Both the position numbers and the translations under genes were made by a program. Below, piece after piece: positions 47,932 to 50,145 of a stretch of DNA of 64,000 nt; within the stretch, counting starts at the first letter, position 1, and every line of letters begins with the position of its first letter. Below the pieces are notes generated by a model that saw nothing but the letters and a program-made list of their open reading frames with translations, made no database searches and was not told where the DNA came from. Origin of the DNA: Methanomethylovorans sp. PtaU1.Bin093 (GTDB lineage: Archaea > Halobacteriota > Methanosarcinia > Methanosarcinales > Methanosarcinaceae); contig NZ_MVQX01000059.1 in the NCBI RefSeq assembly GCF_002067275.1, positions 1 through 64,000 on the forward strand, written 5' to 3'.

Positions 47932-48165
47932 TTATTTTAGCTCGGCACCAACTATGGTCTGTGTAGCCGTAACAAACTCGTTCTCTCTGATGTCATCGAC
48001 TATATTGTTCAATCTGCTGAGGTCTTCGACATCCACAATTACGACAAAGTCGTATTCTCCGAAAACATGATAAATGTCCTTGATACCTTCAATATTTTGC
48101 AATTCTGTATAAGCTGCCCTCTCTTTTCCAGGCAGCACATTTACCATTGTGACTCCGATCACCAT
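47932..48165 (-). CDS. Stand-alone Lrp/AsnC ligand-binding (RAM) domain protein
   Basis: A 77-residue protein that is only the C-terminal effector domain of Lrp/AsnC regulators: VIGVTMVNVLPGKERAAY, IKDIYHVFGEYDFVVIVDVED and FVTATQTIVG. No DNA-binding helix-turn-helix is present. Such proteins form oligomers that bind amino acids and may modulate full-length Lrp proteins. It lies upstream of top6B by 82 bp on the same strand. Confidence 0.9.
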   Translation of the reverse strand: MVIGVTMVNVLPGKERAAYTELQNIEGIKDIYHVFGEYDFVVIVDVEDLSRLNNIVDDIRENEFVTATQTIVGAELK

Positions 48166-48292: not shown

Positions 48293-48300
48293 TTTATATA
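48293..48300 (+). promoter_or_regulatory. TATA box for small-RNA candidate copy 1
   Basis: TTTATATA, starting 33 bp before the GAGCGGG stem of copy 1. Archaeal transcription usually starts about 25 bp after the TATA centre, which falls a few bases before that stem. Confidence 0.5.
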
Positions 48301-48322
48301 CAATTATCTCCCATTGTATAAC

Positions 48323-48396
48323 GATGAGCGGGTACAGATTCTTTTATAACAACCCCCACTCCCCAGCCCGCTCATTCTCCACTCCATGTCTTAATT
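48323..48396 (+). ncRNA. Candidate C-rich-loop small RNA, copy 1
   Basis: A stem GAGCGGG (48326-48332) and CCCGCTC (48367-48373) encloses a 34-nt loop that holds AACCCCCACTCCCCA. The tail ATTCTCCACT leads to TTAATTTTTA (48391-48400), a T-rich archaeal terminator. A second copy lies 197 bp downstream with the same stem, C-rich loop core and tail. The loop could pair with G-rich ribosome-binding sites. No expression evidence is available, and the opposite strand or a simple repeat is possible. Confidence 0.5.
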
Positions 48397-48492
48397 TTTA
48401 TAGGCGCCTGTATCCACCATCTCTTAGTATCATTGTTGTTGTGGTCAATTTTTGCCTGATTTTACATCATAATGATGAGCATAATAATAAAG

Positions 48493-48500
48493 TATATATA
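48493..48500 (+). promoter_or_regulatory. TATA box for small-RNA candidate copy 2
   Basis: TATATATA, starting 30 bp before the GAGCGGG stem of copy 2, so the predicted start falls on the first stem base. The spacing matches copy 1 closely although the sequence between TATA box and stem differs. Confidence 0.5.
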
Positions 48501-48519
48501 TCATTAATACCTACCTTTT

Positions 48520-48587
48520 ATCGAGCGGGATTCTCCTCTTTCTTACAATAACCCCCACTCCCCACCCCGCTCATACTCCACTTTTTA
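48520..48587 (+). ncRNA. Candidate C-rich-loop small RNA, copy 2
   Basis: A stem GAGCGGG (48523-48529) and CCCGCTC (48566-48572) encloses a 36-nt loop with TAACCCCCACTCCCCA. The tail ATACTCCACT runs straight into TTTTTATTT (48582-48590), a good archaeal terminator. Stem, loop core and tail match copy 1, whereas the 5' part of the loop differs. This pattern suggests selection on the structure and C-rich core. Confidence 0.52.
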
Positions 48588-48642
48588 TTTCCAAAGATGT
48601 TTTTCTCATTATAGAGTATCCAAATATCTTATGATTCAGTGA

Positions 48643-50145
48643 TTAGAAATCAAATAATGTCTTCTGCGGCTTTTTTATCATTCCGTTCGTTTTCTCTTTT
48701 TCCTTAGCAGGTTCATTATTGCCGTTCTTTTCTTCCAAAGTCTTCTCTTTATTGTTTATCATATCAGCAAGTCTTGTTTGCTTCTGATCTTCATTGTTCG
48801 TTTGTTTTTCCTTCACCTTGAAAAAAGTAACTTCTGTTTCTCCCTTCTCTTTTCTTAGCTCCTGTGCATCATCATAGATCTTCTGAAGTTTTTTAGTTAC
48901 TTTCGACGCACCTGTCAAAAAGACCAGTTCATCAAGGTCCAGTCCCAGCTCAGCCACCACTGCAGGGGCATATTCCTGGTCCTCAAGCAATATGCTATAC
49001 ATGAATGCTATGTCTGTGCCTGCGTAACGCATTGATTCATGGCAGTGATCAGCTATCTTTGCTGCAATGTTATTGCGCATGTTCCTTCTAGCTTTCAGCT
49101 GTCCCATACGACGCCACAAAGAAGGTGGGTTGAACTTCACAAAACCACGTTTCGGCTGAGACTTTGATACGACCGTTCCACAGGTCATAAGCACGCTTGC
49201 ATAACGCCACATAAGGTAGTTCTGTCTTTTTTGTACTCTTCCAAGAAACAGGTCTGCACGGGATATATACTCATATCCGCTTCGGATCGGGTCTGTGATC
49301 ATTCCCTCATCCTTGCCAGCATATTGTATCGGGAGATTCTCATCGATCCAGTGGATGAGATCTTCAGGACTTTCGTCAAGGTTGTATGTTGTTTCAAGGG
49401 CTGTTTTTGCATCAGTTCCCTTAAATATCCTTTCCATTACCTTGAATATGGATTCTTTGTTATCTCTTTCCGCAGTAGCAATGTCTTCTATGTTGATCTC
49501 ATTTCTGCCCATGGCAACTGCCTGCAGGTCGTTAATGGCACTGCGCATATCACCATCTGCATTCTCTGCGATCTTCTCTATAATGCCTACACCACACATA
49601 AGGCCCTCTTTCTGAGCTACCTGCTTCAGGGCCGGTATCATAGAACGTGCCTGAAGTGCATTGAATTTGATCTCCAGGATATTCGATCTGACAGACGATG
49701 GAATTCCATAAGCATCGTTAGCTATCAATACAATAGGCTGACCGGTTGATCTGATTATATCCCCTATTGCCTTTGCACCACCACGATCGCTTGTCCCATG
49801 CATGTTATCGGCTTCATCCAGCACGATAAGCCTTTTGGAATCCATACCCCCCAATGTGCTCATTCTGGAAGCTGAACCTGCGACCCTTTCGATGACATCG
49901 GCTGTGCGCTGGTCGCTGGCATTGAGTTCGATAACTTCCCATTCCATATCCATTGCAAGAGCATGGGCTGTGGATGTCTTTCCGACACCTGCCGGACCGT
50001 GGAGCAACACTGCCTTTTGTTCGGGCATGCCGTTCAGCCACTTCTCAGCCCATGATCTCAGTTGTCCGGTTGCAGCTGAATTTCCCACGACATCAGCAAG
50101 GCTTTTTGGCCTGTATTTTTCAGCCCATTCTTTCGGTGTGGTCAT
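48643..50145 (-). CDS. rfcL: Replication factor C large subunit
   Basis: A 500-residue AAA+ clamp-loader subunit. Walker [12 protein letters not shown] (about 49-59), Walker [11 protein letters not shown], and the sensor region [18 protein letters not shown]. The C-terminal third is charged and Lys/Glu-rich. The final KPQKTLFDF is a PIP box (Q-x-x-L/F-F) that docks on PCNA. With RfcS it loads PCNA at primer ends. It stands alone, transcribed leftwards. Confidence 0.95.

Follow-up and report, generated by a model that had tools for sequence, protein, structure and literature searches.

The window (the whole stretch of 64,000 nucleotides from Methanomethylovorans sp. PtaU1.Bin093 analysed here) carries two hairpin units that appear to be tandem paralogues of one small-RNA gene family, spread across the class Methanosarcinia and marked by a near-invariant C-rich loop. 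Sequence comparison establishes the family, its promoter, stem, loop and distribution, and on this basis we regard the existence of such an RNA family as almost certain. A sequence-only reading of the window had listed the two units as candidate small RNAs; the promoters, compensated stems, common loop, class-wide conservation and synteny reported below indicate that they are very probably small-RNA genes. The family is apparently unnamed, being found neither in Rfam (no match in the window at the gathering threshold, nor in eight loci at E-values up to 1) nor in the open papers searched, although the Methanosarcina mazei transcriptome tables may number such RNAs. As to its role, we tentatively propose a class-wide family of RNAs, expressed from their own promoters, that would act in trans as antisense RNAs on a limited set of G-rich mRNA sites.

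Both units lie on the forward strand and share the layout described in the sequence-only reading. The GAGCGGG sequences at 48326-48332 and 48523-48529 are 197 bp apart, and each is matched by a CCCGCTC (48367-48373 and 48566-48572). In unit 1 (hairpin at 48323-48376) the predicted stem arms extend over 48323-48333 and 48366-48376, and in unit 2 (hairpin at 48520-48575) over 48523-48529 and 48566-48572. The corresponding covariance model matches, 67.9 and 60.8 bits, are not independent, since both units are among the 30 representatives with a GAGCGGG stem from which the model (hereafter R1; two rows of its alignment were shortened by a few loop bases) was built. The loop of unit 1 includes a U-tract (48342-48345) followed by the core ACCCCCACTCCCCA (48352-48365), which is also present in unit 2 (48551-48564). 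Downstream, the tail CTCCACT (48377-48383 and 48576-48582) and a T-tract (48395-48399 and 48582-48586) form 3′ regions at 48377-48399 in unit 1, where they may represent a terminator, and at 48576-48586 in unit 2. Upstream, TATA boxes at 48293-48300 (TTTATATA) and 48493-48500 (TATATATA) are located 30-33 nt before the units, while the flanks of the two paralogues differ, as had also been noted.

Each unit is predicted to fold as a single stem with a wholly open loop (z = -4.4 and -4.8), and none of 200 shuffles folded as well. None of 100 window shuffles contained the pattern GAGCGGG-N15-45-CCCCCACTCCCC, of which the window itself has two occurrences, and over a 40-nt stretch comprising loop, 3′ arm and tail the two units are 90% identical. 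The host genome contains a third copy on a different contig, with an identical stem and a loop with two C-rich repeats.

The same anatomy recurs across the family. Of 117 distinct units, a list prefiltered on stem score, nearly all have a TATA-like box that starts ~25-37 nt upstream of the stem, and given that promoters of Methanolobus psychrophilus lie ~19-22 nt from the start site (PMC5378194), the RNA is expected to start at or just before the stem. In the unfiltered view, provided by 60 loci from related genomes chosen by the 12-mer CCCCCACTCCCC alone, a closing stem of at least 8 bp was present at 58. The GAGCGGG core seldom varies and thus yields little information on pairing; the two outer stem pairs, however, covary, with 13 double-changed cells vs. 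5.4 in shuffles (0 of 500 shuffles reached 13). In addition, 15 units with wholly different stems (GGGCATCCGG, GAGGCATGTGG, TGAGGTGTGTGAT, GCTGACGGGTT, TGCGGGGGA and others) close the same loop, and at least six unrelated stem sequences around this one loop each have a stem score reached at <1% of control sites. One subtype (loci L008, L009, L010, L035 and L044) combines the stem GGGCATCCGG with an additional small hairpin (GGTCATTTCATGACC) ahead of the U-rich part of the loop.

Within the loop, a U-tract, of at least four T in 109 of 117 units, precedes CCCCCACTCCCC, which is exact in 115 of the 117 and has an A as its 5′ neighbor in almost every case. In RNA form the motif reads A-C5-ACU-C4-A, stays near-invariant between units of different stem sequence and loop length, and is single-stranded in predicted folds; the C run before ACU ranges from 4 to 9, mostly C5 or longer. 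The motif is duplicated inside a single loop in Methanosarcina and others. In the 60 nt that follow the unit, a T5 is present in 50 of 112 cases, vs. 14 of 112 upstream. A switch in which the 5′ arm would pair with the loop CCCACUC instead of CCCGCUC is possible for GAGCGGG stems, and was rejected in general because the loop is unchanged where the stem differs.

A search with R1 revealed a class-wide family. R1 matches were detected in 225 of 238 genomes of the class, including 150 of its 151 good assemblies, and this near-complete retention suggests that the RNA likely does something central. In a phylum-wide draw of 393 genomes, 94 had R1 matches, all of them inside the class and none outside it; within the class, one taxonomic family and two genera with small genomes have no copy. 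In the host's taxonomic family, the 14-mer (at most one mismatch) was found in 100 of 112 genomes, where controls gave a background of 0-2 per strand. Among named genomes, a scan recovered units of this layout in Methanothrix, Methanoperedens (including strain BLZ2), ANME-2, Methanolobus, Methanohalophilus, Methanococcoides, Methanosarcina and Methanomethylovorans. Most genomes hold one to five gene copies (mostly 2-3 in Methanosarcina), and one genus, probably Methanoperedens or a relative (~30 genomes, G154-G184), has up to 13 per genome, far above the other genera. Two kinds of match outside these lineages were also seen: an ANME-2-type copy on a contig labelled Desulfuromonadales (L193), probably a mis-binned ANME contig, and pattern matches in Streptomyces and other GC-rich bacteria, which we read as chance, those inspected having no U-tract or TATA context.

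In the window, the units are located between two genes of the opposite strand, the replication factor C large subunit gene rfcL (an AAA+ ATPase, 48643-50145, minus strand; Pfam AAA and RFC lid), a conserved neighbor that faces the RNAs, and a gene for a 77-aa protein with an Lrp/AsnC ligand-binding domain on the other flank of the intergenic region (47932-48165, minus strand; Pfam AsnC_trans_reg). This small protein is a stand-alone ligand-binding domain without the DNA-binding part, conserved between topVI-B and the RNAs. The rfcL/topVI-B intergenic position and orientation are common to Methanomethylovorans, Methanolobus and two further genera. Other copies adjoin unrelated genes (cofD, sua5, an MFS transporter, a pyrophosphatase-like gene, cbiC, rtcA and others), and several neighbor genes are encoded on the other strand and point towards the RNA, an arrangement that speaks against the RNA being the leader of an adjacent gene. 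Tandem pairs with a spacing of 176-230 bp recur, at separate loci, in Methanomethylovorans, Methanococcoides, Methanoperedens and ANME-2. Together, the unrelated neighbors, the facing genes and the recurrent pairs fit independent genes acting in trans, which is what the copies look like. The spacing of the tandem pairs at L015, L017, L099, L125 and L073 would fit a preference for a fixed distance, roughly the length of one promoter and its RNA. A double-loop RNA gene is also found ~22-23 kb from cdhC in two Methanosarcina genomes (the two genes being at G083:C1:980632 and 1003520, and at G077:C1:3570111 and 3592089), which may be chance.

From these features we infer transcription, action in trans and targets as follows. 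Each unit's own TATA promoter would direct transcription from the start of the stem, or slightly upstream of it, to give an RNA of ~65-80 nt whose paired ends may serve as a clamp that protects the molecule and keeps the loop, U-tract then C-rich motif, open. In trans, the C-rich loop would most likely base-pair with a restricted group of mRNAs at short G-rich sequences (GGGGAGUGG / GUGGGGG), some of them GGAGUG-type ribosome-binding sites, and the outcome would be repression or stabilization, much like the actinobacterial 6C/B11 RNAs; an RNA-binding protein, e.g., an archaeal Lsm/SmAP, may bind at the loop U-tract. This antisense reading is supported by a bacterial precedent for C-rich loops, those of the B11 sRNA, which pair with ribosome-binding sites or G-tracts (PMC10470900), and by an archaeal one, the M. 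mazei sRNAs that mask ribosome-binding sites (PMC5867862). Against it, the 12-nt loop is more invariant than short-seed antisense RNAs usually need.

The sequence-only reading had suggested that an exposed C-rich loop could block G-rich ribosome-binding sites, and had recommended target prediction against them. Ten C, one A and one U can be arranged in 132 ways, and among these the natural loop ranked 53rd by start regions bound at -11 kcal/mol or better in a complete Methanohalophilus genome (G032); over the 360 kb covered of a Methanotrichaceae genome (G234, partial) its rank was 52nd-86th. General blocking was thus not borne out, as permuted loops bind start regions equally or better, and the mid-table ranks suggest no particular adaptation of the loop to canonical Shine-Dalgarno sites. 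The top arrangement in the Methanohalophilus genome contains ACCUCC, and true anti-Shine-Dalgarno (ACCUCC) arrangements were at or near the top of the ranking, in a comparison tilted to some degree towards them since the simple ORF method used for calling gene starts favors those with a Shine-Dalgarno match. The best start-site matches of the loop formed no coherent gene set and had no common function, and no near-perfect or long complementary site was found in a complete genome besides the RNA family itself.

The loop matches a minor ribosome-binding-site variant, GGAGUG, which is enriched at starts in the same Methanohalophilus genome, where GGAGTGA/T/G are the first, fourth and seventh of the 64 GGAGNNN words by enrichment at starts; the RNA may block a few particular ribosome-binding sites using GGAGUG. 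Co-evolution between GGAGUG start sites and RNA presence was not seen, the enrichment being found also in RNA-less genomes and missing in one RNA-bearing genome. In the Methanohalophilus genome these words are enriched upstream of starts more than GGAGGTG, and pairing with the 16S tail is possible with one bulged base.

The main rival explanation is a protein-binding RNA, whose loop would be recognized by a dedicated single-stranded C-rich RNA-binding protein, the RNA acting as a sponge or scaffold with a CsrB-like logic. We consider this possible, if on balance unlikely: the motif stays near-invariant when stem sequence and loop length differ, it is duplicated within loops, genes reach 13 copies per genome, tandem pairs of similar spacing recur in four lineages and no complementary RNA partner was found in a complete genome, whereas a C run of such variable length is loose for a strict protein site and the partner protein is hypothetical. 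That the family is the RNA half of a dedicated ribonucleoprotein in methanogenic and methane-oxidizing Methanosarcinia, with the C-rich loop bound by protein and the RNA serving as a multicopy global sponge or scaffold, we would rate as a little less probable still.

The family (mark: CCCCCACUCCCC) might instead be already known in M. mazei as sRNA41 or sRNA154, the present set being a wider family. Masking of ribosome-binding sites is described for sRNA41 and for loop 2 of sRNA154, an sRNA conserved in Methanosarcina (PMC5867862), and most genomes of that genus have two or three family copies, yet we find this identity doubtful. For sRNA154 it was rejected: the NrpR operator GGTA-N6-TACC of its promoter (PMC3177094) was present in 0 of 176 family instances (60 nt upstream searched), and sRNA154 has a leaderless 20-aa ORF at nt 4-66 (PMC11456600). 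Neither core of the published sRNA154 primers was found in the Methanosarcina genomes tried, so the exclusion is based on the operator and ORF features. For sRNA41, the weak pairing of the loop with the cdhC start region of ACDS loci (~-6 to -7 kcal/mol, not a special complementarity, and with cdhC the only operon gene systematically compared) is mildly against. A short leaderless mRNA for a small peptide, with the ATG of ATGAGCGGG as its start, would agree with the many copies that begin ATGAGCGGG near the expected start and with the 55 of 117 units in which an ORF of 20 or more codons begins close by; it is nevertheless highly improbable, as stem-to-motif spacing falls in all three frames (40/31/27), other copies start GTG, ACG, ATC or AGA, and the ATG takes part in pairing. 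Least credible is a plain dispersed repeat or mobile element without function. Copies do occur at unrelated positions, at times in tandem, but the many dispersed copies without TATA boxes that the sequence-only reading had named as the sign of a repeat were not observed: copies are few per genome, near-universally present and equipped with conserved TATA boxes and compensated stems, the rfcL/topVI-B synteny holds across genera, and the flanks of the two window paralogues differ.

The host class produces or consumes much of the world's methane and includes genetically tractable members, M. mazei and M. acetivorans. The family offers a test of whether archaea evolved a C-rich-loop RNA strategy independently of bacteria and, should the ribonucleoprotein reading be true, would be an archaeal counterpart of the CsrA/CsrB logic built from different parts. 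The bacterial CsrB and RsmZ sponge RNAs carry GGA motifs bound by the CsrA protein. The archaeal family is like them in having a repeated single-stranded motif in hairpin loops and several paralogues, and unlike them in that its motif is C-rich.

Among archaeal sRNAs, sRNA41, from the same class and compared here by its published description rather than by sequence, is alike in kind and masks several ribosome-binding sites in ACDS mRNAs (PMC5867862). The conserved sRNA154 has single-stranded loops, one of them directed against a ribosome-binding site (PMC5867862), and differs from the family in its 130-nt length, NrpR operator, leaderless ORF and two loops (PMC3177094, PMC11456600). In Methanolobus psychrophilus, nine conserved sRNAs induced by cold and preceded by a “cold box” have been reported (PMC5378194). 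The 6C RNA/B11 of Actinobacteria, for which neither the window (gathering threshold) nor eight loci (E-values up to 1) gave an Rfam covariance match, is likewise a lineage-wide hairpin sRNA with exposed C runs, and the exposure of about six Cs in a hairpin loop is common to both, the family's run being mostly C5 or longer in predicted folds. B11 has two C-rich loops per RNA, whereas all folded members of the family have one closing stem and one large loop, and even where two motif copies are present these share that one loop, unlike the two C-loops of 6C/B11. Compared with 6C/B11, the family is further distinguished by a U-tract in a long loop, an interrupted C run (C5-ACU-C4), an archaeal promoter and several gene copies.
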